From NCBI GenBank assembly GCA_030537135.1, contig JAUNOP010000027.1, positions 1 to 37,952 on the forward strand: a stretch of 37,952 nucleotides of DNA, written 5' to 3'. The translations under genes were made by a program, and so were the position numbers. This DNA comes from Eubacteriales bacterium (GTDB lineage Bacteria > Bacillota > Clostridia > Lachnospirales > Lachnospiraceae). This document shows, one piece after another, positions 1,294-22,017 of the stretch (position 1 is its first letter; each line of letters starts with the position of its first letter). The notes below the pieces were generated by a model. That model ran no database searches. It saw only the letters and a program-made list of their open reading frames with translations, and was not told where the DNA came from.

Positions 1294-3759
1294 TTATAAG
1301 GCAGTGTATTTTTTTCTTCTATGTGCTGCTGCCTGAATCATGAGATACACGCCCCAGGCGAGAAGGCTGACTACGCCTCCCTCTTTCATATATGGAGCTT
1401 CATATCTGAGAGTAATCTCATGCTCTCCTGCCTCCACGGCGCATGTCAGAAATCCGATGTTTCCGCGCAGAGCCTCTGTTTTCTGGTTATCTATATAAAT
1501 GCTCCAGCCCTTTTCAAAGGGAATGGCAAAGAAAAGATATCCATCTGAGGAAGTCCTGACTGTGCCTGTGAGAAAATCGTCCTGCTTTGGCGCATCCAGA
1601 ATCACCTCTGCCTCCTGCATTGCCTGACTCTTCTGTAAAGGCAGCTCCTTATCCTCCCCATCTTCCAGAATCAAAACCCTCTCCAAAGGCTCTGATGGAT
1701 TCCTTTGTCCCACATTCTCCCAAAAGCTTTCCTCTGAAACTGTCTGGTCATAAAAACGAGCCATAGAGGTTTCTCTTGTATTTTCATAAACATAGATTTC
1801 TCCGAATTGCTTCATAAAAATATAATCCCTGCCGTCCAAATCGGCTTTTTCAGACAAAAGATATTTTACGCCCAGCACAGACGCGGCGGCTGTATTATCT
1901 GCGATCGCCCAGAAAGCCGTGCGCGCATGATCCTGCTGATAGATCTCAGGACAAAAGCCTTCAAAAAACAAGCTCACATACCCATTCATCACCGAATTAT
2001 AAGAACTCACTCCCCGATATCCCTGTATCAGAGAATCCATACACTGCGTAATGGAGTAGAAATCCTTTTCCACCCGGAAAAACTCCTCATCCTCAGACTC
2101 CAGATAAGCAAGTGCAGCCTGGATATCTGGATGATTCATCTGCCGGAAATATTGCTGTGGATAATTGAGTTCTGCATACACAGCCTCATCCATGTTCTCA
2201 GAGACTCTCTGCTTCATATTCTCTTCGCAGGCCGCCTCATAGCCTTCCAAAGGTGCATCCTCCTTTTTCATTGCATTTCTTCCCTGATAGCAGGTCACTC
2301 CCTCTGAAAGACTCCCCGCTGCAAGGAGCAGCATCCCTATACAGAGAAGCTTCCTTCTCCCTGATGCAGAGCGGATAATGCCAGCGGCCAAAAAAAGCAG
2401 CGCCGTCAGCTCTGTCACAATCGCCAAAATCACAGCATTTGTTCTGTCGCACGAAAGTATACTGACCTGATACGCCTCTCTAAAAAAAGCATTTGCCGCG
2501 CAAAAAACAATCCCTGTCAAAATCAAAGAAACACTGCCGCCCCTTCTTATGTCTTCCCACTCCCATGCCATAGCCATGGCAAAAAAGGGAAGCAGCACAA
2601 AGGTATATCTATGCGAGGAAACCAAAAAACCGTTAAAAATCATTCCCCCAACAGGAAGAAGGAGCGCTGTGCAGATAAGAAGGGCTCCAATGTACACCAC
2701 AATCCTTTGCCTGAGCGTTTCCTTTGCCTTTCGGTATTTCAGCAAAAACTGCGCTCCCAGAAACGGAAACATTGTAGAAAAAAACATTACAGGCGCTTCA
2801 AAATAATTTCCCCAGCCCAGGTAAACGCTTTCCCGGATTGTGTGTCTGTTTTGAAGATTGGAAGAAAACATCCGCTTAAACAGGCTTTCATAATATATAT
2901 CTGTATAAGGGGTGAATGCTGTGCGAAGCCACTCAGACAAGCGAAAGCCCTCATGGCTTGTGCGAAAGGAAATTCCAACAACAGCAAAAGCCAGGGGCGC
3001 AAAAATCACCATGCCCATACCGATTCCCAGGAGAATCTGCGCACAGGAGGCAAGAAACCTCTTTGCTCTCTCCCTTCCTCCTATGTCAAGGGTGCAGACG
3101 CGAAGCAAAAGATAAACACCGGTTCCAACCAGGCACATGTAGGTAAGATACACACTGTACACAGAGCATATGCATACCATAACAGGAAAGAGGGCTCTCC
3201 CCCTCTTTTTCTGAAGCGTCCGCTCTGCAAGCAGGAGCAGAAGAGGCATATACACAGTCACCATTCCAAACTGATAGTGCTGTCCCCATACCATTAAGTA
3301 TCCATTCATTCCATAGGCATAGGCAGCCGCGAGCTTTGCCTGCGTGCCATAGGAAAATTGTGAGAGAAGCCCATAGGCAGCAAGGCCTGCGAGGATTATT
3401 TTTAAAATCGCCAGCACAGGCAAAAACTCCATCATAGTCTTTATTCCAAAAAGAACCCCAACAGAAAGCAAGAGCATGAGGGAAGGGTCGAACAGGCTGA
3501 TGCAGAATTCATTCATTCCCAGGCCCTGTTCAAAATTCCAGAAGCTAAAATTCCCTTCCCTGATATGTCTTACCAGGGAAATATACTGTGAGATATACTG
3601 ATCCTTAGTATCCCCTGCCATATCCTCGAAAATCAAAAGCCTGTCTCCGAACAAATATCCCCAATAAATGATGATTCCACTGAAAAGAAGAGCAAGAACC
3701 AAAATAAGCTCAGGTCTGAGGAGGGCTTTGTACTGCCTTTTTCTTTCTGATGTCTTCAT
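1294..3759 (-). CDS. YfhO-family polytopic membrane protein (putative GT-C glycosyltransferase)
   Basis: About 821 residues. The chosen ATG (MKTSERKRQY) has AAAGGAG six bases upstream; an ATG 15 bases earlier lies in front of that ribosome site and is less likely. After a basic N-terminus there is a first membrane helix, then an extracytoplasmic loop with FEDMAGDTKDQY, the acidic position typical of GT-C enzymes, followed by roughly a dozen hydrophobic segments to about residue 490, a soluble outer domain of about 280 residues and a final helix near VVSLLAWGVYLMIQ. The YfhO family transfers sugars from undecaprenyl-phosphate donors to wall polymers; in Bacillus YfhO works with CsbB. Here the last gene of the operon could serve the GtrB-like enzyme at 16222-17184. 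Family call is firm; substrate is unknown. Confidence 0.85.
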   Translation of the reverse strand: MKTSERKRQYKALLRPELILVLALLFSGIIIYWGYLFGDRLLIFEDMAGDTKDQYISQYISLVRHIREGNFSFWNFEQGLGMNEFCISLFDPSLMLLLSVGVLFGIKTMMEFLPVLAILKIILAGLAAYGLLSQFSYGTQAKLAAAYAYGMNGYLMVWGQHYQFGMVTVYMPLLLLLAERTLQKKRGRALFPVMVCICSVYSVYLTYMCLVGTGVYLLLRVCTLDIGGRERAKRFLASCAQILLGIGMGMVIFAPLAFAVVGISFRTSHEGFRLSEWLRTAFTPYTDIYYESLFKRMFSSNLQNRHTIRESVYLGWGNYFEAPVMFFSTMFPFLGAQFLLKYRKAKETLRQRIVVYIGALLICTALLLPVGGMIFNGFLVSSHRYTFVLLPFFAMAMAWEWEDIRRGGSVSLILTGIVFCAANAFFREAYQVSILSCDRTNAVILAIVTELTALLFLAAGIIRSASGRRKLLCIGMLLLAAGSLSEGVTCYQGRNAMKKEDAPLEGYEAACEENMKQRVSENMDEAVYAELNYPQQYFRQMNHPDIQAALAYLESEDEEFFRVEKDFYSITQCMDSLIQGYRGVSSYNSVMNGYVSLFFEGFCPEIYQQDHARTAFWAIADNTAAASVLGVKYLLSEKADLDGRDYIFMKQFGEIYVYENTRETSMARFYDQTVSEESFWENVGQRNPSEPLERVLILEDGEDKELPLQKSQAMQEAEVILDAPKQDDFLTGTVRTSSDGYLFFAIPFEKGWSIYIDNQKTEALRGNIGFLTCAVEAGEHEITLRYEAPYMKEGGVVSLLAWGVYLMIQAAAHRRKKYTAL

Positions 3760-3774
3760 TTTTTCTCCTTTCAT

Positions 3775-3834: not shown

Positions 3835-3883
3835 GTCAAGCGGATATTCGCAATCCGCTTCGCTGCTTGCTTGATACGTTAAA
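3835..3883. repeat. Palindromic intergenic repeat, copy A (short form, 49 bp)
   Basis: Contains AAGCGGAT pairing with ATCCGCTT and the tail GCTTGCTTGATACGTTAAA. It differs from copy C (32339-32387) at only two positions by eye. The TAA stop of the neighbouring minus-strand glycosyltransferase (3879-3881) lies in its tail. Confidence 0.8.
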
Positions 3884-6320
3884 TCCTTTTTAATGAAAAG
3901 TCCTGTGTGTTCAGACTCAGATTTGGATTATAATAGGGGTCTCCATTCTTCAAAACATCTGGCCATTTCTTTTCAAAGGTCAGAATTTCATTGTTAAACC
4001 GCTCTACCTTTTCCGGCGTGTCCTCCAGTCCTCTTGATTTTGACTCATAATGATACAGCTCTGCATAAGGATTATAGACAATCAAATAGTCGGCCCTGCG
4101 AAGCTTCATACAGAAGTCAATATCATTAAAGGCAATTTTCAGCTCCTCGCTGAAGCCTCCCACCTCCTCAAAGACTGATTTTCTGACCATCATGCAGGCT
4201 GCTGTGACTGCGCTGTAATTCTGCGCACAGATAATTCTGTGGCAATACCCGCTGCTTTCCCGTGGCTGCTGAACAAAGCAGTGACCAGCAAGTCCTCCAA
4301 AGCCTATCACCACGCCCGCATGCTGAATCGTATCATCCTCATAATACAGGCGCGCTCCCACTGCTCCCACATCTGGCCGCATACAATAGCCGAGAAGCTC
4401 CTCCAGACAATCAGGATTTATCATCTCTGTATCATTGTTCAGAAGAAGAAGGTGTTCTCCCTGGGCAAAGCGCTCCCCAAAATTGTTGATGGCAGAATAA
4501 TTAAATTCTCCCTCCCAATGCACAATCCGCACCCTTTTATCGGTTCTCTGAAGCTCCTCATAAAAGCGGAAGGTCTCCTCGTCTGTGCTGTTGTTCTCTA
4601 CAATGACAAACTCAAAATTCTGGTAAGTAGATTTGTTCTCCACAGAAGCTATACACCGTTTCAAATCCTCTATGTGGTCTTTATTTGGAATGATAATGGA
4701 AATCAGAGGATCCTTGGCTCTTTTGTATCTGGTTCTATATAATCCCAGATATTCTCCCTTCATCACCTCTGCCTGAATTCCCATCCTCTCATAATGAGCC
4801 TCAAGCGCCCTCTCCCCTGCTTCAAAGGCATAGAGCTTGCTCTGCGGATTTTCAGCAGTGGAAGAGTCATGGCATCTCCAATGATAGAGAATCTTGGGAA
4901 TATGAGCAATCTCCTCCGGAGAGACTGCCTCTGTGCATCTGAGAATCAAATCATAGTCCTGCGCACCGTCAAACTCCGGGCGCAAGGCTCCCACCTTTTC
5001 CAAAAGACGCCTCTCTACCACAAAAAGATGACAGATATAATTTACAGTTCTCAAAAGGTCTATATTAAAATCCGGTTTAAAATGAGGCTGGAAAAATTTG
5101 TGTCCGTCCATGGTCATTTTGTCCTCGTCTGAGTACAAGAGCCGGACATTTTCTTTTTGATTCACTGCCCTTACACATTCATAAAGAGCATTTGGAGTGA
5201 GTTCATCATCATGGTCTGCAAAGGCAATATAGTCGCCTGTTGCCAGATGTATGGCTGCGTTTGTGTTTTCGGAAATACGAAGGCTGCGCTTGGAAAAGAC
5301 AGTCTTGATTCTGGAATCCTCCTTGTATTTCTCAAGCACCTTGGGAACAGTGGAATCTTCCCCGCTTCCATCTGAAAGGCACAGCTCCCAGTTTGTATAG
5401 GTCTGCTGCTTTACAGACTCTATCAAGGCCTTCAAATATTTTTCCGGCGTATGATAGAGAGGAACCACAATGGAAATCTTCGGCTGTTTTTGAAAGACCT
5501 CTTTTCTCTGTGCCTGCAGCTCTCTTTTATCAGGAAGATGTCTTAGAATCCACTTGTCATAGGGCAGGGGTCTTGAGCGTACATTATGAATTTTTCCCAC
5601 GATTTTATCTGCCAGAGCAGAAGGACCCTGGTTTTTCAGGTACACAAAGCCTCTGGCAGCATATTTTTCAGCCTTTTTCTTCAGGATTCCTGTCCTGGAA
5701 AGGGGAACCATATGAATGGATCTGCTTCCCTGTCCATAAAATACCAGATACAGATATTTTCCCTGCACATTGGGAGCCTCTATGAAAAATCCGCATTTGT
5801 CGCTGACCTTGCCTTCCTGAAACATCTTTTCCACATCCACTCTGGCAGTCCTTTGAATGGTAAAGGGAATTTTCTTTCTGTCCTGTCCATAAACACAGAT
5901 TTTTACAGGCCTTGAAAACACAGCCCAGCCCCGTATCCGGCAGGTCTTATCCTGAATTTGCTCTTCCTCAATATAATAATAGGGCTTTCCCTGCTTTTTT
6001 AAGAGTTCTCTGACAGGCATGGAAAACCAGCAGAACCTCTGCCCTTTATGTTCTCCATAAATGCGAAGCTTTCGATATTCCCCCAGGTTCTCCGGAAGGT
6101 AAAGCCTTACACTCACTCTCTCCCCATCCACAATATCCAGATCCTGGAATCTCTCCATCACACTCACATATTCCTGGTGTTCAAATTCAGCCTCCAGCTC
6201 GCTCTCATCCAGGTACGCAGAAAGCTTCGCCTCCTTTGGCCAGGTTCCCTGCACAATATAAATATTCGGATTCTCAAGATGAAACCTTTCTCTGGTTACT
6301 TCAAAAATCTCCCTTGCCAT
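3879..6320 (-). CDS. Bimodular family 2 glycosyltransferase (paralogue 1)
   Basis: 813 residues. Roughly the first 270 residues form beta-rich, non-GT domains. Two GT-A modules follow: the first opens with KISIVVPLYHTPEKYLKAL and carries ADHDDE as the DxD-type site; the second opens with LISIIIPNKDH and carries LNNDTE. Both modules are typical of GT2 enzymes acting on dTDP-rhamnose or similar donors in O-antigen and rhamnan clusters, so the protein could add two different linkages. No membrane segment is seen, consistent with action at the cytoplasmic face. It overlaps the upstream paralogue by 20 bases, implying translational coupling. The sugar specificity cannot be read from sequence. Confidence 0.9.
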   Translation of the reverse strand: MAREIFEVTRERFHLENPNIYIVQGTWPKEAKLSAYLDESELEAEFEHQEYVSVMERFQDLDIVDGERVSVRLYLPENLGEYRKLRIYGEHKGQRFCWFSMPVRELLKKQGKPYYYIEEEQIQDKTCRIRGWAVFSRPVKICVYGQDRKKIPFTIQRTARVDVEKMFQEGKVSDKCGFFIEAPNVQGKYLYLVFYGQGSRSIHMVPLSRTGILKKKAEKYAARGFVYLKNQGPSALADKIVGKIHNVRSRPLPYDKWILRHLPDKRELQAQRKEVFQKQPKISIVVPLYHTPEKYLKALIESVKQQTYTNWELCLSDGSGEDSTVPKVLEKYKEDSRIKTVFSKRSLRISENTNAAIHLATGDYIAFADHDDELTPNALYECVRAVNQKENVRLLYSDEDKMTMDGHKFFQPHFKPDFNIDLLRTVNYICHLFVVERRLLEKVGALRPEFDGAQDYDLILRCTEAVSPEEIAHIPKILYHWRCHDSSTAENPQSKLYAFEAGERALEAHYERMGIQAEVMKGEYLGLYRTRYKRAKDPLISIIIPNKDHIEDLKRCIASVENKSTYQNFEFVIVENNSTDEETFRFYEELQRTDKRVRIVHWEGEFNYSAINNFGERFAQGEHLLLLNNDTEMINPDCLEELLGYCMRPDVGAVGARLYYEDDTIQHAGVVIGFGGLAGHCFVQQPRESSGYCHRIICAQNYSAVTAACMMVRKSVFEEVGGFSEELKIAFNDIDFCMKLRRADYLIVYNPYAELYHYESKSRGLEDTPEKVERFNNEILTFEKKWPDVLKNGDPYYNPNLSLNTQDFSLKRI

Positions 6321-8823
6321 TGTTCTTCTCGTTCCCTTCCTTTTCCTTCAAGGAGCAGTCTTCTCTTGTCAGCGACAGATTCGGATTATAATAGGGGTCT
6401 CCTGCCTGAAGCTCTTCTTCCCATTTGCTTCTGAAATATTCCACTTCCTCTGCAAAACGCCTTTTCTTCTCAGGGGTATCGTCGCTGCCCCTGGATTTTG
6501 ATTCATAGTGATAAAGCTCTGCATAAGGAGTAAATACCACGAGATAGCCTTCTTTCCGAACCTTCATGCAAAAATCCACATCATTAAACGCCACCTCTAA
6601 TATCTCGTCAAAACCTCTGACCCTGGCAAAGGTCTCTGCCTTCACCAGCATACAGGCAGCTGTCACTGCGCTCATTTCTTGTACATTGATGAGTCTTCCC
6701 ACATATCCGGGATTACTGCGAAGCGCACGGCACATCACATGTCCGGCGACTCCGCCCAGCCCAAGGACGACTCCTGCATGCTGAATCGTATCGTCTGGAT
6801 AATACAGCTTTGCGCCCACAATTCCCACCTGCTTCTGCTGGCAGATTCCAAGCATTTCCTCCATCCACTCTGGAGTCAGAATTTCCACATCATTATTCAG
6901 AAACAGCAGATATTCTCCTTTTGCCTGTGTGACTGCAAAATTATTAATGGCAGAATAGTTGAATTTTGCGCTCCAGGTAAGCACTCTGGCATTTGGATAT
7001 CTGTCTGTGAGCGTCTCATAATAACGGAAGGTTTCCTCCTCTGTACTGTTGTTTTCCACAATCAGAACCTCATAATTTTTGTATGTGCTTCTCTCCTTCA
7101 TAGAGGAAAGACAAAGTTCCAAATCCTGAGTATGATCCTTGTTCGGAATAATAATAGATATCAGAGGACTTCCCTGAACCTCAAATATACTTCTGTAGCA
7201 CCCAGGGGCTTCTGACATTTCCACCCTTGCGGGGATTTTAAGTCTCTTATAATGTGCCTCCACAGCATGCTTTCCCGCTATATACGCATAGCTCTTACTT
7301 GACGGGTCGGCAGCCGTAGAGGCTGCGTGGCATCTCCAATGATACAATGCCTTTGGAATGTGAATGATTTTATCGGCCTGCTCACAGCATCTGAGAACAA
7401 AATCAAAATCCTGTGCCCCGTCAAATTCACTCCTGAGCATTCCCGCTTTTTTCAAAAGCTCTCTTTTTACAGCAAAAATATGACAGATATAATTATTGCT
7501 TCTCAGAAAAAACAGATTAAAATCGGGTTTAAAGTTAGGCTCAAAATATTTTTTTCCATCCATACTCACCTTATCCTCATCTGTATAGAGAGCGTCAGGC
7601 TTCTGGTTCTGGTTTATTGCTTTTACAATTTCATACAGCGCATCCGGCGCAAGCACGTCGTCATGGTCGCAGAAAACAATATAATCGCCTCTTGCCATCC
7701 TGAGTGCAGCATTGGTATTCTCGGAAATTCCTTTGTTTTCCTTAAGTCTTCTGTAGCTGACTCTCTTCTCATGCCTATAATGCTTTTTAAGAAAATCCAG
7801 AGCCTCCCCATTCTCGCTTCCGTCCGCAAGACAGAGCTGCCACTTAGAATAGGTCTGATTTTTCACAGAGTCCAAAAGCTCCTTAAAAAAATCAAGGGGC
7901 GTATTATACAGAGGAATAACAATACTTACAAGAGGCTGATATGGAAATACTGTTTTTCTCTGTTTTTTCATTTCCATGACGCTTGCCGCATGCTCAAGCC
8001 TCCACACCTGATAGGAATCCTCTGGATAATTTGTCCTGGCATAAGCGTATTCAGCAAAACCGGCCACTCCCCTCTCCTGGATGATCTGGACATTCTGCTT
8101 CCATTTTCCATGCCTTAAGGTATTGAGAATATAAGAAGCATACTCGCTGTCTTTGTATTTTTTCTTTATATCCACATAATGCTTCTTCTCTCTCTCTCCT
8201 GCACGCACAACAACAAAAACGCCTGCGCATCCTCTTCTCTTCACCGGAATAAGAAGCTCGAAGCCATATTCTTCTTCACTATGCTCCAACCCCAGCGATT
8301 TTGCCACGTCCGGACGATAGCTTCTCTTTATCTCACATTCCAGGGGGCGCTCCTTGTCATCTGTCACAGCTATCTCCGTTTTCTCATCCCAATCTGCTGC
8401 CCAGCCCAGGATACGAAAGCCATCCTTTGTCACAAACTCCTCAGAATCGATTCGATATTCCAGCTTCCTGTCCTCATATTCCCTTTTCAGCTGCTCACAG
8501 GCTGCCTTCCAGATACAGACCTTCTCTGTCTCACACAGGAAAAACACTTCCAGAAGCTCATATGCATTCATAAACTTCAAAATCTCAGGAATACAAACAG
8601 AAAAACCGGGATTTCTCACCTGGGAAAATTCCGGGCGAGAGCTTACCACATCCTCTCTCTGTATTCTCCGGGGGGTTAGAACAGCAATTCTGTCCTTTTC
8701 ATTTCCTACAAGCTCCAGCCTTCCTTCTTTGCCTTGAAGATGGACATACCACCCGTTCAGCAGGAGACTCTTGTCTGCATAATTAAATTTCTGCTCATCT
8801 ATTTTCCAAAAAAAATCATTCAT
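6301..8823 (-). CDS. Bimodular family 2 glycosyltransferase (paralogue 2)
   Basis: 840 residues with GAGGAGAAG just upstream of the ATG. Same plan as its downstream neighbour: a beta-rich N-terminal part of about 290 residues, then GT2 module one (VSIVIPLYNTPLDFFKELL, CDHDDVLAPDALYE) and module two (LISIIIPNKDHTQDLELCL, FLNNDVEILTPEWMEE). Shared stretches such as FNYSAINNF, YHYESKSRG and PYYNPNLSL show the two genes arose by duplication. The N-terminal domains differ much more than the catalytic modules, so each may hold the growing glycan or a partner differently. Probably assembles the polymer exported by the adjacent Wzm/Wzt transporter. Catalytic class firm, linkage unknown. Confidence 0.9.
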   Translation of the reverse strand: MNDFFWKIDEQKFNYADKSLLLNGWYVHLQGKEGRLELVGNEKDRIAVLTPRRIQREDVVSSRPEFSQVRNPGFSVCIPEILKFMNAYELLEVFFLCETEKVCIWKAACEQLKREYEDRKLEYRIDSEEFVTKDGFRILGWAADWDEKTEIAVTDDKERPLECEIKRSYRPDVAKSLGLEHSEEEYGFELLIPVKRRGCAGVFVVVRAGEREKKHYVDIKKKYKDSEYASYILNTLRHGKWKQNVQIIQERGVAGFAEYAYARTNYPEDSYQVWRLEHAASVMEMKKQRKTVFPYQPLVSIVIPLYNTPLDFFKELLDSVKNQTYSKWQLCLADGSENGEALDFLKKHYRHEKRVSYRRLKENKGISENTNAALRMARGDYIVFCDHDDVLAPDALYEIVKAINQNQKPDALYTDEDKVSMDGKKYFEPNFKPDFNLFFLRSNNYICHIFAVKRELLKKAGMLRSEFDGAQDFDFVLRCCEQADKIIHIPKALYHWRCHAASTAADPSSKSYAYIAGKHAVEAHYKRLKIPARVEMSEAPGCYRSIFEVQGSPLISIIIPNKDHTQDLELCLSSMKERSTYKNYEVLIVENNSTEEETFRYYETLTDRYPNARVLTWSAKFNYSAINNFAVTQAKGEYLLFLNNDVEILTPEWMEEMLGICQQKQVGIVGAKLYYPDDTIQHAGVVLGLGGVAGHVMCRALRSNPGYVGRLINVQEMSAVTAACMLVKAETFARVRGFDEILEVAFNDVDFCMKVRKEGYLVVFTPYAELYHYESKSRGSDDTPEKKRRFAEEVEYFRSKWEEELQAGDPYYNPNLSLTREDCSLKEKEGNEKNNGKGDF

Positions 8824-8876: not shown

Positions 8877-11099
8877 TTATTGCTTTTTTACTCTGCGATA
8901 CATTTTCCACACCTTGGTATTTTCCATTTCTCTTATTAAGCGCTTACTGCTTTCCAGCTCCTGTCTGAGCCTGTGTATTTCCTCCCTCTGCCTGATGCTT
9001 TCCTGTTGCTTTTTTTGGGCAAATTCAAAAAGGACTTTCCTGCCTTCTTTGTCTGTGTTTTTTTCAAGCTCTACAAGGAAATGTTTCTTTCCTCTGTCAA
9101 AGGGTCCGGCATAAATCTGCGGATCCTCCAAAAACGCATAGGTTCCATTGCCAAGGCAAATACCGTTTGTGGATATTTCAAAGGTTTTCCCATCATCCAG
9201 ACAGGTAAGCCCCAAAATCCTGCATATTATTGCTTCCTCTCCTGGGTCAATCCGAATATAAGAGGCTTCCTCTGGGAGGGTAATCGTAATTTCATTTTTT
9301 CCCGCGGCAAACGGATAATATGCAGAAGCTTCTTCTGAAAAATTTCTCTCCTTTCCCCAGAAAACCTGGAGCTTTCCCTGCTTTTCTCTGGAAATCTGCT
9401 GATAATACTGCTTTGCATCTACCTTTCCAGGAGAAATTTCTGTATAGAGATTCCGCATGGGAATATGCTCTCCCAGAATGTATCTCTGAAAGCTCCTCTC
9501 CATTTCCTCATAAGCGCAAAGCTCTGCGTCTGTAATCCCGGCTTTCTCAAAAAGTCCCTTCTCCTCCAGACAGAGTCTTTTCTGATCACTGTATATATAA
9601 TAATGGAGAATTCGATAGAGCAAATAGTTTGCCGGAACAGGGAAGAAAAAGGTCCATTCATAATCAACGATATGATTTCCAGTCTGGTTTATTATAAGGT
9701 TCCCTGCTACCAGATCCACATTGGACACCTCTGCGCAGCGCAGCTGGTCTGGAAGAGCGGGATTTCCAAATACTCTGGCAAATTCCTCGCTCATCGTAAA
9801 TTCCTGCTTGCTGTGAAGGCTTCTGATTTTATCCAGATACCAGAAAAGCTTTTCCTCCAGGGCTTCTATTTTTTTCTCCTCTAACAAACCATCCAGGATT
9901 TCTTCCAGGGTCTGCCCTTCTAGGTATTCAAGCTCTGCACAACTTCCATCCTCTGACTCCTTGCAGGCATTCAGAAAAAAGCCTTCCTTTTCATAAGCCT
10001 CCTTCAGCCTCTTCTGAATTTCCAGAAGCCTCTTTGCGTGAGGCCTTGCCTGTATGGAAGAGGGATGCCTCCGCACCCAATGCCCTTCCCCGTTTCTTCC
10101 AATCTGCGTATACACAGAGAATTCCTCTGCCCTCTCATTTGAAAATTTGGAGTACAGTATCTTGTCCGCCCTCTCCTTGTTATCCCTTCCTATTATCACA
10201 AGAAAGGAGTTGGAAAACTGAGGAAATAAATCATTTTCCCCCAGGGAATCAAAAACAGCCGACTCTTCAAAAAGACTCAGCCTCAATCTGTCGTAGTTAA
10301 ATTCTGTCCTGTTGAGTTCTCCTTTTTGTGGAAGACGCTCATCTGAAAAAATCTGAACCGGAAATTTATAATCTGGAAATGGATAATAGTATTCCCCTAT
10401 AAGGCCTCCGGCATCTTTCAAAAGCTTATTCAATTCTTTCTGAGTAAAGGTTTTAACGCCTCTGGAATGTCGATAACCCTCAAGCCCCTCAAACAAAGCT
10501 CCAAAATGATCCTCTGTACATCCTGCCCAGTATTTGAGTCCAAAACGGTTTTCAATCGCCAGAATGATCTTCCCGTCCGGCTTTAAATGGGAGGCAATTG
10601 TCTTGAGAAAATCCACATACGGAGTCGCGCTGTCAATATAGGCCTCTCCATATTCAAATACCCCAATCAGGGTGATATAGTCATATTTCTCGGTCAGATT
10701 TTTTTCGATTTCCTGAAAATTTCCAACCAGAATCTTCAGATTCTTCCTGTCCCGGTGCCTCCAAGCATTGATTTCACTTCGCCTTTTGGAAAGCTCAATG
10801 CAGGTGACCTTTCCTGCCTTTTTGCACAGGGCGCCTGTGACTGCACCGCAGCCTGCGCCGATTTCCAGAACATTTTCCCTCCCGGTAAAGGGAAGCCAGC
10901 TTACAATGTTTTCTCTGACATGAGAAAAATGATACAGAACAGGCCAGCTCTTTCTCTCTGCTATCACCCGATTCCACTGGTCTTCCCTATAGTTTCGGGC
11001 AATTTCCAGCATTTCCTCCTCCACTGCCCCGTCGCTGTAAAAATCCTGACCAGGATACCACTTCAGTTCTAATTGTACCTGCCCTATTTTCTCTATCAT
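8877..11099 (-). CDS. Methyltransferase / kinase-like / coiled-coil protein, WbdD-like architecture
   Basis: 740 residues; start overlaps the wzt stop as ATGA, with GGAGAAG upstream. Residues about 55-250 are a class I SAM methyltransferase (motif I VLEIGAGCGAVTG at 77-89, IELS at 101-104). Residues about 330-545 resemble an aminoglycoside-phosphotransferase or kinase fold: NVDLVAGNLI (D462, N467) could be the catalytic loop and IVDYEW (D479) the metal site, although the usual HGD is changed to NVD. Residues about 575-693 are beta-rich, and 695-727 form a charged heptad-like helix before a basic end. In Gram-negative O9a clusters, WbdD has a methyltransferase, kinase and coiled coil, ends chains and measures length. 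Adjacent wzt with a glycan-binding domain supports the analogy; homology is inferred, not shown. Confidence 0.75.
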   Translation of the reverse strand: MIEKIGQVQLELKWYPGQDFYSDGAVEEEMLEIARNYREDQWNRVIAERKSWPVLYHFSHVRENIVSWLPFTGRENVLEIGAGCGAVTGALCKKAGKVTCIELSKRRSEINAWRHRDRKNLKILVGNFQEIEKNLTEKYDYITLIGVFEYGEAYIDSATPYVDFLKTIASHLKPDGKIILAIENRFGLKYWAGCTEDHFGALFEGLEGYRHSRGVKTFTQKELNKLLKDAGGLIGEYYYPFPDYKFPVQIFSDERLPQKGELNRTEFNYDRLRLSLFEESAVFDSLGENDLFPQFSNSFLVIIGRDNKERADKILYSKFSNERAEEFSVYTQIGRNGEGHWVRRHPSSIQARPHAKRLLEIQKRLKEAYEKEGFFLNACKESEDGSCAELEYLEGQTLEEILDGLLEEKKIEALEEKLFWYLDKIRSLHSKQEFTMSEEFARVFGNPALPDQLRCAEVSNVDLVAGNLIINQTGNHIVDYEWTFFFPVPANYLLYRILHYYIYSDQKRLCLEEKGLFEKAGITDAELCAYEEMERSFQRYILGEHIPMRNLYTEISPGKVDAKQYYQQISREKQGKLQVFWGKERNFSEEASAYYPFAAGKNEITITLPEEASYIRIDPGEEAIICRILGLTCLDDGKTFEISTNGICLGNGTYAFLEDPQIYAGPFDRGKKHFLVELEKNTDKEGRKVLFEFAQKKQQESIRQREEIHRLRQELESSKRLIREMENTKVWKMYRRVKKQ

Positions 11100-12373
11100 A
11101 TCGCTTCTCCATTCTCAAATTTCACCTGGGAATTCATATCGTAAAAGCCTACCGTATTTTTGGAGGAGATAACTGTGACATTGCACACATCGTACAGTCT
11201 GTGAAAAACAGTAAATTCTCCATCCTGGTATCCGGTACAGCCAAAGGACAGGAGATACTCTCCTCCCTGCAAATCCATTTTCTGAGTAAACGTGGCAATG
11301 CACACATCTCCTGCTTCAGAACGGATGCTCCCGGCCTTCTCATACATCGTATTGGTTCCTGTAATCTCTGTTCCCTGAATATTTTTAAAGGTATAAGCCA
11401 GAATTGGCTCCTGGATGTGCTTATGAAAAACCGCCTTTATCTTAATCTGGAAGCTGCTTCCCTTTTCTATGACATTGGTAAGATTTCCCTTTTCATCCAG
11501 AACAGCAAAGTCCACAATCTCTGCCTGCTTGTCTCCATATTCCAGACAGGAGGGATTCACAGAAAAACCTGTGGACCATTTTTCATTCCTGCACGGCTCA
11601 CTGAGCGCTTCCTCTTCTGCCTGTTTTACAGGCTCCTGTCCCACCAGAAGCTGCTTATACAAGTCTACCATGGCTTTTGGGCTTCCTTCATCCAGCTTTT
11701 CTCCCCTGTTCAGAAGAATAACCCTGTCGCAGTATTTTGACACGCTGCCAAGGTCGTGGCTGACAAACAGAATCGTCTTTCCCTGCTCCTTGAACTCCTC
11801 AAACTTATGATAGCATTTTGCCTGAAAAAAGACGTCTCCCACTGACAGAGCCTCATCCACAATCAAAATCTCAGGGTCAATATTAATGGCAACCGCAAAG
11901 GCAAGGCGTACGAACATACCGCTCGAATAGGTTTTCACCGGCTGATTGATAAAATCTCCAATATCCGCAAATTCCAGAATATCGGTAAGTCTTGCGTCAA
12001 TCTCTTCTCTGGAAAAGCCAATCATTGTCCCGTTCAGATAAATATTCTCCAGGCCTGAATATTCCATATTAAAGCCTGCTCCAAGCTCCAGGAGAGCAGA
12101 AATCCTTCCGTTCACAGTGACCTCTCCCTCTGTGGGACTTAGTACTCCTGTGATAATTTTCAAAATTGTGGATTTGCCGGAGCCATTTGTTCCGATGATT
12201 CCCACAGTCTCGCCTGTATGAACCTTAAAGCTGATATTTCTCAGCGCATAATGCTCCTTATAGCATTTTCTGCGGCTCAAACCCAGAGCTTCCTTTAACC
12301 GATCCATGGGTCTGTCGTAAAGCTTATACATTTTGCTCAAATTATCTACGCTAATCGCTGTTCTCTCGTCCAT
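11096..12373 (-). CDS. wzt: Polysaccharide ABC exporter ATPase with C-terminal glycan-binding domain (Wzt-type)
   Basis: 425 residues. The nucleotide-binding domain shows Walker A GTNGSGKST (61-69), signature YSSGM (149-153) and Walker B ILIVDEA (169-175), with the H-loop in VSHDLGS. After a linker, residues about 270-425 form a beta-sandwich of the Wzt C-terminal type (AEIVDFAVLDEKG, FKNIQGTEITGTNT). In O9a-type systems this domain recognises the modified non-reducing end of the finished glycan before export; TagH-type ATPases of teichoic acid export differ in their extension. The next gene downstream is the candidate terminator enzyme and the gene before it is the permease, so the three form one export unit. 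Confidence 0.92.
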   Translation of the reverse strand: MDERTAISVDNLSKMYKLYDRPMDRLKEALGLSRRKCYKEHYALRNISFKVHTGETVGIIGTNGSGKSTILKIITGVLSPTEGEVTVNGRISALLELGAGFNMEYSGLENIYLNGTMIGFSREEIDARLTDILEFADIGDFINQPVKTYSSGMFVRLAFAVAINIDPEILIVDEALSVGDVFFQAKCYHKFEEFKEQGKTILFVSHDLGSVSKYCDRVILLNRGEKLDEGSPKAMVDLYKQLLVGQEPVKQAEEEALSEPCRNEKWSTGFSVNPSCLEYGDKQAEIVDFAVLDEKGNLTNVIEKGSSFQIKIKAVFHKHIQEPILAYTFKNIQGTEITGTNTMYEKAGSIRSEAGDVCIATFTQKMDLQGGEYLLSFGCTGYQDGEFTVFHRLYDVCNVTVISSKNTVGFYDMNSQVKFENGEAI

Positions 12374-12427: not shown

Positions 12428-13243
12428 CTACAGCACATCTGCAAAATGCACTCGCAGCCGCCCAAATATCCAGCTTCCAAACAGAAAGCACATTCCTGCA
12501 AATACCCAGAAATACAGCGTCCAGCCCGGACGTTCAAAAAACCAGTTTTTAAAAATAAAGGTATCCCTGTATCCGGTTACTACATAATACATAGGATTCA
12601 GCTTGAGAATTGTCATAACTGCCGGATGTGCGGCAAGCTGATCCTCTGCAATCCACATAATAGGAGTCAGCCAGACTCCTACCTGAAGAACAATGTTGAT
12701 AATCTGGGTTAAGTCCCGGAAAAATACCACAATAGCACAGGTAGCATAGCACAGCCCCAGTACAAGCACAAACACACAGCCGCTGTAATAAAGAATCTGG
12801 ATATAATAAATGTCCGGGAAATATCCGTATGCTGTAAATAAAACAATCGTAAAAAACACAAAAAACACATGTACAATAAACGCAGAAAGAATCTTCACAA
12901 CCGGAAGCACACTGATCTGGAATACAACCTTTTTCACCAGATAATTATATTCCAGAAGCGCATTGGTGCCTCCGTTCAAGGCGTCCTGAAAAAAGAACCA
13001 GGGAACAATTCCGGCTACCAGGTACAGAACAAAGGGAATCCCAAGACTCCCTGTATCTGCCCGAAAGCCCACAGAAAAGACAAACCAGTATACTAGAATT
13101 GTAATTACCGGCTGAATAAAGGCCCAGATGATTCCAAGATAAGAACCTGCATATTTTGTCTTAAAATCGTTTTTTGCCAGATTCGCAACCAGCCTGCGGC
13201 TTCGGAAAAGCTCTGTGGGCCGGGAAATCAATCTCTTCAGCAT
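12428..13243 (-). CDS. wzm: Polysaccharide ABC exporter permease (Wzm/TagG-type, ABC-2)
   Basis: 271 residues, the usual size for ABC-2 polysaccharide permeases. After a basic N-terminal amphipathic stretch (LISRPTELFRSRRLVANLAKNDFK) come six hydrophobic segments, beginning with YLGIIWAFIQPVITILVYWFVF and ending with LYFWVFAGMCFLFGSWIF. The NDFKTKYAGSYLGIIW signature is typical of Wzm/KpsM relatives. GGGAGG lies just upstream of the ATG, six bases after the rfbC stop. It pairs with the Wzt-type ATPase to move an undecaprenyl-linked glycan across the membrane. A palindrome overlaps its stop codon. The alternative, a teichoic-acid exporter TagG, is less likely given the Wzt C-terminal domain of its partner. 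Confidence 0.92.
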   Translation of the reverse strand: MLKRLISRPTELFRSRRLVANLAKNDFKTKYAGSYLGIIWAFIQPVITILVYWFVFSVGFRADTGSLGIPFVLYLVAGIVPWFFFQDALNGGTNALLEYNYLVKKVVFQISVLPVVKILSAFIVHVFFVFFTIVLFTAYGYFPDIYYIQILYYSGCVFVLVLGLCYATCAIVVFFRDLTQIINIVLQVGVWLTPIMWIAEDQLAAHPAVMTILKLNPMYYVVTGYRDTFIFKNWFFERPGWTLYFWVFAGMCFLFGSWIFGRLRVHFADVL

Positions 13244-13249
13244 TCGGTT

Positions 13250-13804
13250 CTACCTCCCAAGCTCCCGAAGATTGCCCCATTTTTTGTCCTTTTCAGAAAA
13301 AATCAGCTCCATGCCTTCAGGAATCGGCCACGCAATGCCAATGTCCGGGTCGTTCCACAGAAGACCTCCCTCATCATTCGGATGATAAAAGTCTGTACAT
13401 TTGTAGCAGAATTCTGCTTCCTCTGACAATACCAGAAAACCATGTGCAAAATTTTTCGGAATAAAGAACTGCTTCTTGTTCTCTGCTGAGAGGAGAACTC
13501 CATACCATTGTCCATAGGTGGCAGAGCCCTGGCGAAGATCCACAGCCACGTCAAATACCTCTCCTTTTACCACACGAACCAGCTTGTCCTGAGGATAATG
13601 TATCTGAAAATGCAGTCCTCTTAAGACCCCTCTTCTGGAGCTGGACTGATTATCCTGCACAAAAACCTGGTCAATCCCGGCCTCCTTAAAATCATTGTAA
13701 TTATAGGTTTCCATAAAATAACCCCTGGTGTCTCCAAAAACAGTCGGCTCTATCACCTTCAGGCCTTCTATGCTGCCGCATTCTGTTACTTTAATTTTTC
13801 CCAT
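13250..13804 (-). CDS. rfbC: dTDP-4-dehydrorhamnose 3,5-epimerase
   Basis: 184 residues from MGKIKVTECGS, which has AGAGGA about seven bases upstream; the open frame extends 26 codons further but that segment is out of family. The enzyme epimerises dTDP-4-keto-6-deoxy-glucose toward dTDP-L-rhamnose. Motifs include VFGDTRGYFMETY, QDNQSSSRRGVLRGLHFQ (catalytic His region), VRVVKGEVFDVAVDLR and FFIPKNFAHGFLVLSEEAEFCYKCTDFYHP. It is the only rhamnose-pathway gene here: rmlA, rmlB and rmlD must be elsewhere. Placement directly before the exporter permease suggests that the exported polymer contains rhamnose. Confidence 0.96.
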   Translation of the reverse strand: MGKIKVTECGSIEGLKVIEPTVFGDTRGYFMETYNYNDFKEAGIDQVFVQDNQSSSRRGVLRGLHFQIHYPQDKLVRVVKGEVFDVAVDLRQGSATYGQWYGVLLSAENKKQFFIPKNFAHGFLVLSEEAEFCYKCTDFYHPNDEGGLLWNDPDIGIAWPIPEGMELIFSEKDKKWGNLRELGR

Positions 13805-13866
13805 TTTCTTATCCTCTTTTCTTTTTATTCTCTCATTTTGTTCTGATACCGAATGCTGTGCATTCT

Positions 13867-15051
13867 CTATTCCTTTGTGCAAATAAAAATCCCGGCCTCC
13901 TTTGTAATACGAAAACAGCGTTTTACTTTTTTTCCCACAAAGGAGCGAAATTCCTTATATCTGTCAAGGATATACTGATTCTGATTTCCATGGCAGGAAA
14001 GAATATATTCTATCAGAGGCTCCGGGGAATCCACAATCAGTGCATCCTCATAGAGGCGCATTTCCACCCTTTTAAAATAGGGCTGCAGAATTTTCTCTCC
14101 ATTTTCCAGTCCAAATTTTTCATATAGTTTTTCTGCGGACAGGATGATACGGCTGTCAAATTCCTGCACAAGACGGCTGATTTCCCGCATATGCCGAGAA
14201 CCATAGCTGCTGCAGATAAACCTTCCTCCCCTTTTCAAAACCCTGCGAACCTCAGCGCATACCTCTGGAATTCTGTCGCAATAGAAAAGAACATGATTCG
14301 CAAGAACCAGATCCACACTCTCATCTGGAAGGGGAAGACTGTGACAGTCAAACGTCCGAAAGGAAAAGCGAACGTCAGATGAGCCTATGGCTCGTCTTGC
14401 GTCTCTTAGCATTCCTTCTGAAATATCTGAGAGAAGAATATGAATATCATCTGGAAGCGCCGCGAGGTTTTCTGTCCAAAGGGCTCCATTTCCGCAGCCA
14501 AGCTCAAGCACAGCCATTTTTGGTACAAACTCACACTGTTTAAAAATCCAGGGAAACCATCCCAGCGGATTGCTGGAATACAGCTTGTGCAGATGGATGC
14601 GGGCAGAAATATTTGTGGAGTTCTGGTACTGGGTTTTCAGGCTCTTCTCCATGTTTGTAAGATGAATCAGCTCCAGCATCTGGCTCCAGTCAATGTCATG
14701 CGCCCTCTCAATCGTAGCCGTGGTATTCTGGATAGCCCTTTCCACAAGCTGCATCTGCTCAATTCTATCCTGAATGAGCTTGAGCTGAAGCTTCAGGGAA
14801 CTCAGCAGCATGTGAGAGTCTGCGTCGTCAATCGTAAGGCTTCGGATATCCTCAAGAGAAAAGCCAAGATACTTAAGCAGAAGAATCTGCTGCAGCCTCG
14901 CAAGGTCTGCGTCCGTATAAAAGCGCGCACCGCTCTCATTTACATAAGAGGGCTTTAAAATATTCTGTTTGTCATAAAAGCGGATTGTCCGCACAGAGAC
15001 CTGAGCCATACGCGCAAATTCACCTGATGTATAATAACCAGGAAGCTTCAT
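13867..15051 (-). CDS. MerR-type regulator fused to a SAM-dependent methyltransferase
   Basis: 394 residues with AAGGAG upstream of the ATG. Residues 5-75 are a MerR winged helix-turn-helix (YTSGEFARMAQVSVRTIRFYD, GFSLEDIRSL) followed by a coiled dimerisation helix to about 115. Residues about 170-330 are a class I methyltransferase with VLELGCGNGALW (181-192), LLSDISEGML and VLANHVLFYCDRIPEVCAEVRRVLKRGG. Such fusions exist in Firmicutes; the natural signal and methyl acceptor are unknown. Its position inside a glycan operon, between wecE and rfbC, could mean local control of the operon or modification of a precursor. Both domains look complete. Confidence 0.88.
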   Translation of the reverse strand: MKLPGYYTSGEFARMAQVSVRTIRFYDKQNILKPSYVNESGARFYTDADLARLQQILLLKYLGFSLEDIRSLTIDDADSHMLLSSLKLQLKLIQDRIEQMQLVERAIQNTTATIERAHDIDWSQMLELIHLTNMEKSLKTQYQNSTNISARIHLHKLYSSNPLGWFPWIFKQCEFVPKMAVLELGCGNGALWTENLAALPDDIHILLSDISEGMLRDARRAIGSSDVRFSFRTFDCHSLPLPDESVDLVLANHVLFYCDRIPEVCAEVRRVLKRGGRFICSSYGSRHMREISRLVQEFDSRIILSAEKLYEKFGLENGEKILQPYFKRVEMRLYEDALIVDSPEPLIEYILSCHGNQNQYILDRYKEFRSFVGKKVKRCFRITKEAGIFICTKE

Positions 15052-15091: not shown

Positions 15092-16225
15092 TTAACAGAA
15101 CTGTGGAAATTTCAAGGTTTGCTGTACAATATAATCCACCTGTTCCATGGGCAGATTGTAAAACATGGGAAGACGCAAAAGCCTCTCGCTCTCCTTTGTC
15201 GTGTATACATCCTCCCCGAAAAATCTCCCAAACCGCTTCCCAGCCGGAGAGGTATGCAGCGGAATATAGTGAAAGACGCTGAGAATTCCCTTGCTTTTCA
15301 GGTAAGCAATCAACTGTCCTCTGACCTCCATGTTCTTTACCTTGATATAATACATATGCGCATTATGTTCTGCACTGGGGGGCACATAAGGTCTTTCAAT
15401 CATACCCTTCTCCTCCAGAGACTTTAAATTCTCGTGGTAAAATTGGTAAATTTGCATCCGCTTGTTAAAAATCTTTTCTCTTTCCTCCAGCTGCGCATAC
15501 AGATAGGCTGCATTCATCTCGCTCGGAAGGTAAGAGGAGCCATATCCAACCCAGGTATATTTATCCACCTGACCTCTGAAAAACTTACTCCTGTCTGTGC
15601 CCTTTTCTCTGAGAATTTCTGCCTGCTCCTGGTATTTTTTGTCCTGAAAAAGAAGCGCTCCGCCCTCTCCCATGGTATAATTCTTTGTCTCGTGAAAGCT
15701 ATAGCAGCCAAAATCTCCTATGGTTCCCAGAGCCCTTCCCTTATAAAAGGCGTCCACGCCCTGAGCGGCATCTTCGATCACCTTTAGTCCGTATTTTTCC
15801 GCAATTTTCATAATCTCATCCATTTCACAGGAAACTCCTGCATAATGAACCACAACAATCGCCTTTGTTCTCGGAGTCACCGCCGCCTCAATCAGCTTTT
15901 CATCTATGTTCATGGTGTCTGGGCGGATATCCACAAACACAAGTCTCGCCCCTCTAAGTACAAAGGCGTCTCCTGTGGACACAAAGGTGTAAGAGGGAAG
16001 AATCACCTCATCCCCTGGCTGAATGTCTGCCAGAAAAGCGGCCATCTCCAAAGCATGTGTACAGGAGGTTGTCAAAAGCACGCCTCCTGCATGAAACTGA
16101 TTTTTTATCCACTCTGTACATTTTCTGGTATATTCTCCGTCTCCGCACAACTTTCCTCTGCTTATGACGTCCTGAATATATTCTATTTCTTTTCCCACAA
16201 AAGCAGGCCTGTTGAAATCAATCAT
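15092..16225 (-). CDS. rffA: dTDP-4-amino-4,6-dideoxyhexose transaminase (WecE/RffA type)
   Basis: 377 residues, DegT/DnrJ/EryC1 fold type I PLP enzyme. Lys181 in SFHETKNY is the Schiff-base lysine; the FHETKNY stretch is the hallmark of the WecE/RffA branch, which transaminates dTDP-4-keto-6-deoxy-D-glucose to dTDP-4-amino-4,6-dideoxy-D-galactose. Other matching blocks are LTTSCTHALEMAA, DEVILPSYTFVSTGDAFVLRGA and EDAAQGVDAF. AGGAGG precedes the ATG, which overlaps the previous gene's stop (ATGA). Its substrate is the same RmlB product used by RfbC, so both branches draw on one precursor. The exact amino sugar is inferred from the subfamily; a different 4-amino epimer remains possible. Confidence 0.93.
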   Translation of the reverse strand: MIDFNRPAFVGKEIEYIQDVISRGKLCGDGEYTRKCTEWIKNQFHAGGVLLTTSCTHALEMAAFLADIQPGDEVILPSYTFVSTGDAFVLRGARLVFVDIRPDTMNIDEKLIEAAVTPRTKAIVVVHYAGVSCEMDEIMKIAEKYGLKVIEDAAQGVDAFYKGRALGTIGDFGCYSFHETKNYTMGEGGALLFQDKKYQEQAEILREKGTDRSKFFRGQVDKYTWVGYGSSYLPSEMNAAYLYAQLEEREKIFNKRMQIYQFYHENLKSLEEKGMIERPYVPPSAEHNAHMYYIKVKNMEVRGQLIAYLKSKGILSVFHYIPLHTSPAGKRFGRFFGEDVYTTKESERLLRLPMFYNLPMEQVDYIVQQTLKFPQFC

Positions 16226-17184
16226 TCCTGATCTCCTCCTTCTGTGAGTTGCTCTCCTTCAATATCTCCTCCCACGATTTCGCGGATTACGTACTGAGGG
16301 GTTTTATTCAAATTCAATATCATTTTTCCAATATATTCTCCCATTAATCCAAGCATCAAAAACGAAAACCCAAAGAAAACAAGCATCGCGCACATCATAG
16401 AGGACCAGCCGACCGCAATATCAGGCTTCAGGAGCTTTTGTATAAACACAGCGATTGCTCCCAGAAAGCCGGATCCTGAGAACAGAATTCCCAAAGCCGT
16501 GGCAATCCGAAGAGGAATCACCGTATAATTCAGGCAGGAAAACAAGAGCCGCATTCCCTTTATAAAGGAATAATTGGATTTTCCCTGTTCTCTCTCATGG
16601 TGCTCAATCTCCACATTTGCCATATTATGGGTTGTGCGGAAAAACAAGATCTGAAGATATGCATTGTAGCCGTCAAATTTCTTAAGCTCTTCACACACAT
16701 ACCTTCTGCTCAGCCAAAAGCTGCTCATCTGGATTCCCTTTGGCCGGTCCACAATGTGCCACAAAAGGAACTTGCTCACAGCTCCTGTAAAATTTCTCCA
16801 TTTTGAAAATTTTCTCTGGCGGTACACGCCAAACACCACATCATAGCCCTCCTCCAGCTTTTTCAGAAGAAGAGGAACCTGATCCGGATAATGCTGCAGA
16901 TCGTCGTCCATGCCCAGAATCAAATCTCCCTGTGCATAGTGCAGTCCCGCCATAATGGCATTGTGCTGGCCAAAATTCTTGGCAAGGTTAATTCCCTTTA
17001 CATTCGGATAGGCTTTCGCCGCTCTGGTGATTGCCTCAAACGTATTGTCCCTGGAATAGTCGTTCACCAGAATAAACTCACATTCATACTCCGGGTACTT
17101 ATCAAACTCCCGCGTCACCAGATAAACCAGCTTTTCTATGGTTTTTTCTGAATTATAGCACGGTACTACAACAGATACTAACAT
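16222..17184 (-). CDS. GtrB/CsbB/ArnC-like polyprenyl-phosphate glycosyltransferase
   Basis: 320 residues. A GT2 catalytic domain opens with VSVVVPCYNSEKTIEKLV, followed by VNDYSRDNTFEA and GMDDDLQHYPDQVP (metal and sugar binding), and RQRKFSKWRN. Two C-terminal helices (IATALGILFSGSGFLGAIAVFI; MMCAMLVFFGFSFLMLGLMGEYI) anchor it. Members load one sugar from a nucleotide donor onto undecaprenyl phosphate at the inner face. It follows two small SMR-type genes and precedes wecE, which recalls the arn layout (ArnB, ArnC, ArnE/F), and YfhO at the operon end recalls CsbB/YfhO. The donor could be the WecE product. GGAAAGGAAG supports the start. Confidence 0.9.
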   Translation of the reverse strand: MLVSVVVPCYNSEKTIEKLVYLVTREFDKYPEYECEFILVNDYSRDNTFEAITRAAKAYPNVKGINLAKNFGQHNAIMAGLHYAQGDLILGMDDDLQHYPDQVPLLLKKLEEGYDVVFGVYRQRKFSKWRNFTGAVSKFLLWHIVDRPKGIQMSSFWLSRRYVCEELKKFDGYNAYLQILFFRTTHNMANVEIEHHEREQGKSNYSFIKGMRLLFSCLNYTVIPLRIATALGILFSGSGFLGAIAVFIQKLLKPDIAVGWSSMMCAMLVFFGFSFLMLGLMGEYIGKMILNLNKTPQYVIREIVGGDIEGEQLTEGGDQE

Positions 17185-17271
17185 GTTTCTTCCTTTCCAA
17201 AATTGTGTTGCTCACAGTCAAATACCGCGCAACACATTCTCCTGTAATCAGGCAGACCGTTTCCTGCTCGA

Positions 17272-17337
17272 TTCAAGCGGAAATTCGTAATACCCACAGG
17301 GTACAATGTCCGCTTCGCTGCTTGCTCAGCGCGTAAA
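17272..17337. repeat. Palindromic intergenic repeat, copy B (long form)
   Basis: Same ends as copies A and C (TTCAAGCGGAAATTCG and CCGCTTCGCTGCTTGCT) but with an extra inner block, ACCCACAGGGTAC plus flanks, of about 17-18 bases. Its right end contains the TGA stop (17326-17328) of the adjoining minus-strand gene. A TGTGTTG/CAACACA stem lies further toward the glycosyltransferase start. Confidence 0.75.
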
Positions 17338-19212: not shown

Positions 19213-19235
19213 ATTAATTCCCACTTTCGTATTCG

Positions 19236-19264
19236 ATTATATCATCTTCTGTCCAGTATCTCAA
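19236..19264 (-). promoter_or_regulatory. Sigma-A promoter of the glycan operon
   Basis: On the minus strand TTGAGA (19259-19264), 17 bases, then TATAAT (19236-19241). The -10 lies about two dozen bases before the ATP-grasp ATG, giving a very short leader. It is the best promoter seen upstream of the operon. Confidence 0.75.
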
Positions 19265-19305
19265 TCTTTTTCTTTCCTTTCCCTGCACGCTATAGTATGA
19301 TGAAA

Positions 19306-19446: not shown

Positions 19447-19493
19447 CATAATGAAAGAATAGAAAATTGGAAATTCGGAGGTAAGTAACAGCA

Positions 19494-21952: not shown

Positions 21953-21979
21953 ATAAATCCCCTTTTCTTTTTATATTTT

Positions 21980-22010: not shown

Positions 22011-22017
22011 AATCCCA

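Follow-up and report, generated by a model that had tools for sequence, protein, structure and literature searches.

We examined a 37,952-nucleotide stretch of DNA (the window), contig 63 (JAUNOP010000027.1) of the 3.07 Mb, 103-contig assembly GCA_030537135.1 from a Eubacteriales bacterium of the family Lachnospiraceae, and in particular a gene for a 740-residue protein that joins a methyltransferase (MT) to a kinase-like domain and lies beside a gene for a Wzt-type exporter ATPase. The closest named relatives of this gene are Blautia records, at 53-57% identity. On the minus strand the genes follow one another in the order RfbC, Wzm, Wzt with a Wzt_C domain, the 740-residue protein, two GT2-GT2 proteins and a YfhO membrane protein. 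Drawing on precedents from other bacteria, we suggest, with a probability of roughly 0.6, that the 740-residue protein is a chain terminator of the Klebsiella pneumoniae O7 ORF6-N type, which would place a phosphate or methylphosphate cap that Wzt_C reads before export. The features at the centre of this proposal are as follows.

8877..11099, minus strand: MT-kinase, predicted glycan chain terminator, 740 amino acids, ATG start (open reading frame list and homologues)
10185..11099, minus strand: class I S-adenosylmethionine (SAM) methyltransferase domain, residues 1-305, with E79-x-G81-x-G83-x-G85 (Pfam; a separate gene in some relatives)
9420..10184, minus strand: APH/protein-kinase-like phosphotransferase domain, residues 306-560 (hhalign and conservation)
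9714-9716, 9699-9701, 9663-9665 and 10068-10070, minus strand: kinase-domain codons of D462, N467, D479 and R344 (in place of Lys), respectively
9048..9380, minus strand: beta-rich block, residues 574-684, with RIDP...NG...EDPQI (conservation; no database match)
8910..9017, minus strand: short helix or coiled coil, residues ~695-730, ending in MENTKVWKMYRR (coil judged by eye)
11096..12373, minus strand: Wzt ATPase with C-terminal glycan-binding domain, 425 amino acids, ATG start (Pfam and PDB)
11135..11545, minus strand: Wzt_C (PF14524) domain, with the R392 codon at 11198-11200 (Pfam and alignment)

The original prediction for this DNA had placed both reading frames, as well as D462, N467 and D479, correctly, all on the minus strand, and the overlap it described can be seen in the junction GAAGCGATATGATAGAG, where the TGA stop of Wzt and the next ATG start share ATGA. 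Chance does not account for the 740-codon frame: when the gene was shuffled 500 times by mononucleotides, no open stretch exceeded 181 codons. The glycan-binding domain that had been assigned to the C terminus of Wzt matches PF14524 in Pfam (E 5e-42), the Wzm gene adjoins, and in PDB the protein is best matched, over residues 8-405, by 8dku (E 1.3e-83), an Aquifex aeolicus Wzt that includes the carbohydrate-binding domain. The SAM methyltransferase that had been proposed for the N terminus of the 740-residue protein is equally borne out by Pfam, as Methyltransf_12 (E 2.6e-11).

By profile comparison, residues 306-560 are kinase-like, with the catalytic residues in register. A kinase profile from 54 aligned sequences was compared with self-built profiles of 24 APH-family and 25 protein-kinase domains and scored 94.2% (E 1.1e-7) against the former and 92.3% (E 5.5e-7) against the latter, a gap so small that scores alone cannot choose between the two. 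Eight control profiles, among them AT and DPM, which were small at 5 and 6 sequences, reached at most 0.4%, and comparing the MT profile with APH as an additional control yielded 1.7%. Five column-shuffled kinase alignments all stayed below 1%, and three random half alignments scored 92.9-94.1% against APH and 88.8-92.9% against protein kinase. The profile alignments set D462, N467 and D479 in register with the catalytic Asp, the Asn and the metal Asp, which we take to be the HGD/HRD aspartate, the catalytic-loop asparagine and the metal-binding aspartate. Across an alignment of 53 rows (that of the window plus 52 others, drawn from 61 complete fused reading frames of which nine were omitted to limit size), these three residues, together with R323, T331, G395, E481, W482 and R496, are identical in every row, that of the window included. 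The kinase part of the window protein alone had no kinase match in single-sequence searches of Pfam or PDB, so the assignment depends on the profile comparison, which supports the phosphotransferase-like domain of the original prediction and covers, as a kinase-like region, the residues 330-545 on which that prediction had staked itself. PDB matches of the kinase profile were weak (alpha-glucan phosphorylase at E 0.038, then JAK1 at E 0.064) and were not relied on.

The loop that reads NVD here in place of HGD had been taken as a sign that the kinase may be altered or inactive. At the position of the HxD histidine, however, the alignment has Asp in 38 rows and Asn in the other 15, and two proteobacterial relatives have Phe or Tyr. 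Because the histidine is missing family-wide, NVD is the family rule and is uninformative on inactivation. Moreover, the O7 enzyme has been shown to be active (PMC11231755; here and below, statements drawn from cited reports refer to the portions of their texts that were available).

In the terminator of K. pneumoniae O7, an MT precedes an unannotated AmiN-like kinase of 223 residues, and the chain continues through an Ig-like domain and a coiled coil to two GT2 modules. The enzyme adds phosphate and a methyl group to the terminal rhamnose, and a D441A substitution abolishes phosphorylation; orthologues have been named among alphaproteobacteria, gammaproteobacteria and cyanobacteria (PMC11231755). 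The window enzyme resembles the ORF6-N part of this terminator in its order: the MT comes first, next a kinase-like domain of the AmiN kind that databases leave unannotated, then, in the place of the Ig-like domain, the beta-rich block, and a helix, with an ABC transporter in the cluster (PMC11231755). The key MT residues correspond as well: Y21, Y56, G81, G83, E102 and Y150 of the window match those reported for O7 ORF6, and all six positions are invariant in the 53 rows except 102 (D in 30, E in 23). Unlike the window enzyme, which comes from a different host group, has a short coil and is accompanied by GT2s that are separate proteins, the Klebsiella protein continues into its coiled coil and two GT2 modules.

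Plasmid-borne relatives help to connect the two. A search of plasmid proteins returned three records, from Citrobacter braakii, Pseudomonas asturiensis and Rhizobium, the last matching in the MT only. On the P. asturiensis plasmid, a permease and an ATPase accompany a 1457-residue protein (MT, kinase, LRLDP block, two GT2) in which Y28, Y66, G91, G93, E112 and Y158 stand at the same numbers as in published O7 ORF6, and in which the catalytic-type Asp is residue 443, against D441 in ORF6 (PMC11231755). The C. braakii order is rffG, rfbA, rfbC, rfbD, permease, ATPase and a 649-residue relative. A profile of the window family matches the P. asturiensis and C. braakii proteins at 1e-76 and 5.6e-69, respectively (in a four-sequence search space, and mostly through the MT). 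With the kinase profile by itself the scores are 28.5 and 3.9 bits, so that the kinase link is good for the former and weak for the latter. We suggest that the window enzyme works like WbdD, the terminator of Escherichia coli O9a, and by descent belongs with the O7 ORF6 type.

The enzyme is widespread in the family and tightly linked to its presumed reader. A homologue at E<=1e-20 was found in 143 of 299 Lachnospiraceae genomes and Wzt_C in 175 of the same genomes, with both present in 137, the enzyme only in 6, Wzt_C only in 38 and neither in 118 (Fisher p 5e-41; because the loci share ancestry, this and other p-values overstate independence). The gene pair that had been expected in other Lachnospiraceae is therefore found across the family, and the enzyme is a regular neighbour of a Wzt carrying the glycan-binding domain: it follows Wzt_C within 700 bp on the same strand in 101 of the 128 genomes with a listed best place, and lies within 10 kb in 13 more, leaving 14 where it does not. 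The true association is tighter than the genome table suggests, since 11 of the 13 Wzt_C-only loci that were fetched (those, of the 38, with listed places) have next to Wzt an MT-kinase of divergent sequence, matched by the kinase profile at E 3e-47 to 3e-25; the remaining two are L226, which runs into a contig end, and L233, which has no enzyme.

The arrangement of the unit is flexible. Among the 80 best named loci, which as best matches are biased to close relatives, the unit comes directly after Wzt with Wzt_C in 72, has it elsewhere in the locus in 3 and lacks it in 5 (3 of them at contig ends). These loci comprise 62 MT-kinase fusions, 10 with separate genes, 4 with the kinase fused to a glycosyltransferase (GT) and the MT apart, and 4 with all parts in one protein, and in 61 the next gene to be recognised, no more than 500 bp away, encodes a GT. 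Forty hand-chosen loci divide similarly (21, 10, 5 and 4), with the unit directly after Wzt with Wzt_C in 33. Because MT and kinase are found as separate genes or re-fused, they seem to act as a pair. A phylum-wide kinase search was positive in at least 7 of 348 genomes, 4 of them in the family of the window and including its own genome; this is a lower bound, as scores are low for the divergent forms in L276 and L293, and the one in L284 falls outside the 1e-3 threshold.

The domain order, the kinase-profile relationship, motif conservation, operon linkage, co-occurrence and homology to proteobacterial relatives that fit the O7 enzyme are the observations on which a mechanism can be proposed, with the reaction, its order, the cap chemistry, the sugar and the control of export modelled on the O7 and O9a precedents. 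A lipid-linked glycan, probably containing rhamnose because RfbC is in the operon, would be built by the two double GT2 enzymes. The APH-like domain would phosphorylate its non-reducing end and the MT domain would then methylate the terminal phosphate, so that elongation would stop once the chain end is capped. Wzt_C of the neighbouring Wzt would read the anionic cap and admit the chain to export via Wzm. As a guess, the exported glycan may be attached to the wall by LytR-CpsA-Psr proteins, four genes for which lie elsewhere in the genome. The other genes of the run are these.

12428..13243, minus strand: Wzm permease, ABC2_membrane (Pfam)
13250..13882, minus strand: RfbC/RmlC, dTDP-4-dehydrorhamnose 3,5-epimerase
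6301..8823, minus strand: two-module GT2 glycosyltransferase A, likely polymerase (Pfam)
3879..6320, minus strand: two-module GT2 glycosyltransferase B, likely polymerase (Pfam)
1294..3774, minus strand: YfhO membrane protein (Pfam)

In regard to cap chemistry, one residue of Wzt_C may be informative. In the PDB alignment, R392 of the window Wzt aligns with the A. aeolicus Trp beside the bound cap, which we take to be Trp362, a count along the printed chain giving 363. Arg occupies this position in all 129 Wzt_C sequences gathered by similarity to the window. Outside the family, 37 further Bacillota loci were inspected; a Wzt reading frame is present in 35, and in the most distant of these the alignment at residue 392 is uncertain. 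Five have an MT-kinase or an MT with an APH-like protein, and here the residue is Arg in L265, L273, L276 and L293 and His in L284 (the kinase of L273 being called from a Pfam APH match at E 0.0049 and a visible D-x4-N...D motif). The other 30, rescanned with the kinase profile without filters, gave one match up to E 1, at 0.28; Arg occurs in 2 of them (L269 and L270, in both of which the next gene matches Sulfotransfer_3) and Trp in 11 (Fisher p for Arg against kinase presence, 0.0014). Three of the Trp loci (L267, L277, L278) were examined with Pfam, and in each the following gene has an MT and no kinase match. L271, L274 and L298, with distant MT matches and no kinase, have Tyr, Tyr and Trp. 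The pattern was noticed post hoc and suggests the hypothesis that Arg reads an anionic cap and Trp a methyl cap.

The two sulfotransferase-like genes merit a separate remark. Both genes (L269:3660-7181 and L270:6057-7232) start with a Sulfotransfer_3-like domain, at E 2.3e-5 and 2.6e-5, just below the Pfam cut-off, and in L269 two GT modules come after it, separated from it by a stretch that looks like a coil. Each is a possible sulfate-capping terminator. A sulfotransferase-domain gene whose role is unknown also follows Wzt in Aeromonas salmonicida (PMC4483657), and our literature search found no description of a sulfate cap.

Methyl caps, by contrast, have precedents. WsaE of the Geobacillus stearothermophilus S-layer glycan is likewise Gram-positive, belongs to a Wzm/Wzt operon and makes an MT-dependent chain end; unlike the window enzyme, it has an MT and GTs only and forms 2-O-methyl rhamnose, and no kinase is described in the available text (PMC2943079). 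The A. aeolicus exporter, whose Wzt also has a carbohydrate-binding domain (PDB 8dku), reads 3-O-methyl mannose or rhamnose, with Trp362 packing on the methyl group where the window has Arg392 (PMC9445017). On this model the kinase domain of the window protein would be inactive or structural, and the MT would methylate the terminal sugar directly. Residue 344, a likely ATP-contacting position aligned near the APH N-lobe Lys, is indeed Arg in the window and Lys in the other 52 rows. However, the column holds Arg in 6 of the 24 aligned APH-family proteins (Lys in 13, another residue or a gap in 5), so Arg need not abolish activity; the remaining invariant kinase residues are kept; and R392 of Wzt goes with kinase or sulfotransferase neighbours, Trp being the residue in the three checked loci with an MT and no kinase. 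We therefore consider a methyl-only cap unlikely, though it is the best placed of the alternatives.

The C-terminal part of the protein bears on whether the enzyme ends chains at all. The beta-rich domain recognised in the original prediction proves to be a conserved block in the aligned relatives (residues ~574-684), with RxDP, NG and DP motifs, and its LR(I/L)DP motif recurs in the P. asturiensis protein. Neither Pfam nor PDB offers a convincing match for it, and its profile does not resemble that of Wzt_C; by comparison with O7 ORF6 it is possibly a carbohydrate-binding domain (PMC11231755). As to the predicted C-terminal coiled coil, a helix is present in the window, but it is short (~35 residues, by eye) and not conserved in the majority of the aligned relatives. 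At most 20 residues follow the beta block in 25 of the 53 rows, 21-37 in 8 and at least 38 in 20; with no more than 37 residues in 33 rows, a long coiled coil acting as a conserved length ruler is not what these proteins share. Some end in a short basic-aromatic tail, MENTKVWKMYRRVKK and similar, with an NTKxW-like pattern that fits 11 of 53 rows; we would guess that it may hold the enzyme at the membrane.

Known terminators are marked by a long coiled coil, and the 33 rows too short to hold one would suit a pair that decorates internal chain or linker residues without ending chains, with Wzt_C recognising something else. The tight linkage to a Wzt bearing Wzt_C, and the fact that Wzt_C reads a terminal cap in known systems (PMC11231755, PMC9445017), make such internal decoration rather improbable. 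If the relatives without a coiled coil are terminators, as the capping proposal has it, they call into question the need for a ruler in such systems.

WbdD of E. coli O9a and K. pneumoniae O3 shares with the window enzyme an MT followed by a kinase, a coil and a partner Wzt with a carbohydrate-binding domain, and differs in having a eukaryote-like kinase, three domains only and a C-terminal region, 460-708, with the coiled coil (PMC3482155). That the window protein is a true WbdD orthologue, with such a kinase and a coiled-coil ruler, is very improbable despite the same domain order, the same type of function and a protein-kinase profile score nearly equal to that for APH, given the extra beta block, the unconserved ruler and the absence of WbdD from the 17 PDB matches that the kinase profile gave at E 10 or better and from the 60 listed of 180 PDB matches of the MT profile. 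O7 ORF6-N thus replaces WbdD, which the original prediction had named, as the closest protein that has been characterised. What stands of the proposed Clostridia version of capped, length-controlled ABC export is the pairing of enzyme and Wzt_C, the domains and the family spread; a conserved ruler for chain length and kinship with WbdD are not supported.

Several observations weigh against the phosphate-cap proposal, in addition to Arg344 and the limits on the counts given above. Member-wise Pfam searches of the 54 kinase regions, where the kinase domain is mostly missed, matched Pkinase in 4 (best 4.8e-6), APH in 2 (0.0038) and Choline_kinase in 1, as against 6 for the unrelated RBD_SIN1 model (0.0028), and returned 46 families, mostly spurious among the 25 listed. 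The C. braakii relative, at its 3.9 bits, has Glu at the position of D479, the second metal position, and the link to O7 ORF6 itself is made through residue numbers and the intermediate P. asturiensis relative. Wzt_C was not detected in 6 of the 143 enzyme-bearing genomes, and, conversely, the Wzt at L233:6862-8367 has an Arg-type Wzt_C and no MT-kinase in the 13 kb fetched. Finally, the data do not distinguish a methyl group on the phosphate from one on a sugar hydroxyl.

Other genes of the window lie in or around the glycan operon. One gene within it (13867-15051) joins a MerR regulator to a further SAM methyltransferase. Flanking the operon are a DPM/ArnC-like GT2, a DegT aminotransferase and two small EamA proteins (16222-18025), with the YfhO gene at 1294-3774, presumably a set of the kind in which a lipid-phosphate sugar, a flippase and a membrane glycosyltransferase serve the extracellular addition of side groups. 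Near the aminotransferase gene are an ATP-grasp ligase and a divergent WbqC-like protein (18022-20186), perhaps for acylation of an amino sugar, and a GH25 lysozyme and an L,D-transpeptidase, each with choline-binding-type repeats, adjoin the cluster (20387-24903).

MT-kinase terminators of the O7 type in Klebsiella were already known (PMC11231755), as was capped Wzm/Wzt export in a Gram-positive, from WsaE (PMC2943079; mentioned too in PMC3482155). Relative to the literature searched, what is new is how widely the enzyme occurs in the family, the splitting and re-fusion of its modules, the existence of forms lacking a ruler and the pattern at residue 392 of the reader. Judged by titles and abstracts, no paper was found on this gene pair in Lachnospiraceae; the words Firmicutes, Gram-positive and Clostridi never occur in the main text of Kelly 2024 (PMC11231755); and in the available text on the Ruminococcus gnavus glucorhamnan no connection to an MT-kinase gene was seen (PMC10112845). 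A metatranscriptome study counts wzm/wzt among its hub genes and reports wzm to be lowered in Blautia in Parkinson's disease, with no terminator mentioned in the text seen (PMC12289924). We offer tentatively, and as a whole doubt, the wider proposition that about half of the sampled family genera (142 of 298) export a surface glycan capped with phosphate or methylphosphate, often without a long coiled-coil ruler, by means of a fused, split or polymerase-joined MT-kinase pair, and that one Wzt_C residue tells which cap is accepted, Arg going with phosphate or sulfate and Trp with methyl, a sulfate cap included.

The surface glycans of gut Lachnospiraceae face the host, and our literature search found no description of their completion and export. 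A conserved pair of terminator and exporter offers a simple mutational test of how Wzt discriminates among cap chemistries. It also predicts a defined non-reducing end group for the glycans of the 143 of 299 sampled family genomes that carry the enzyme.

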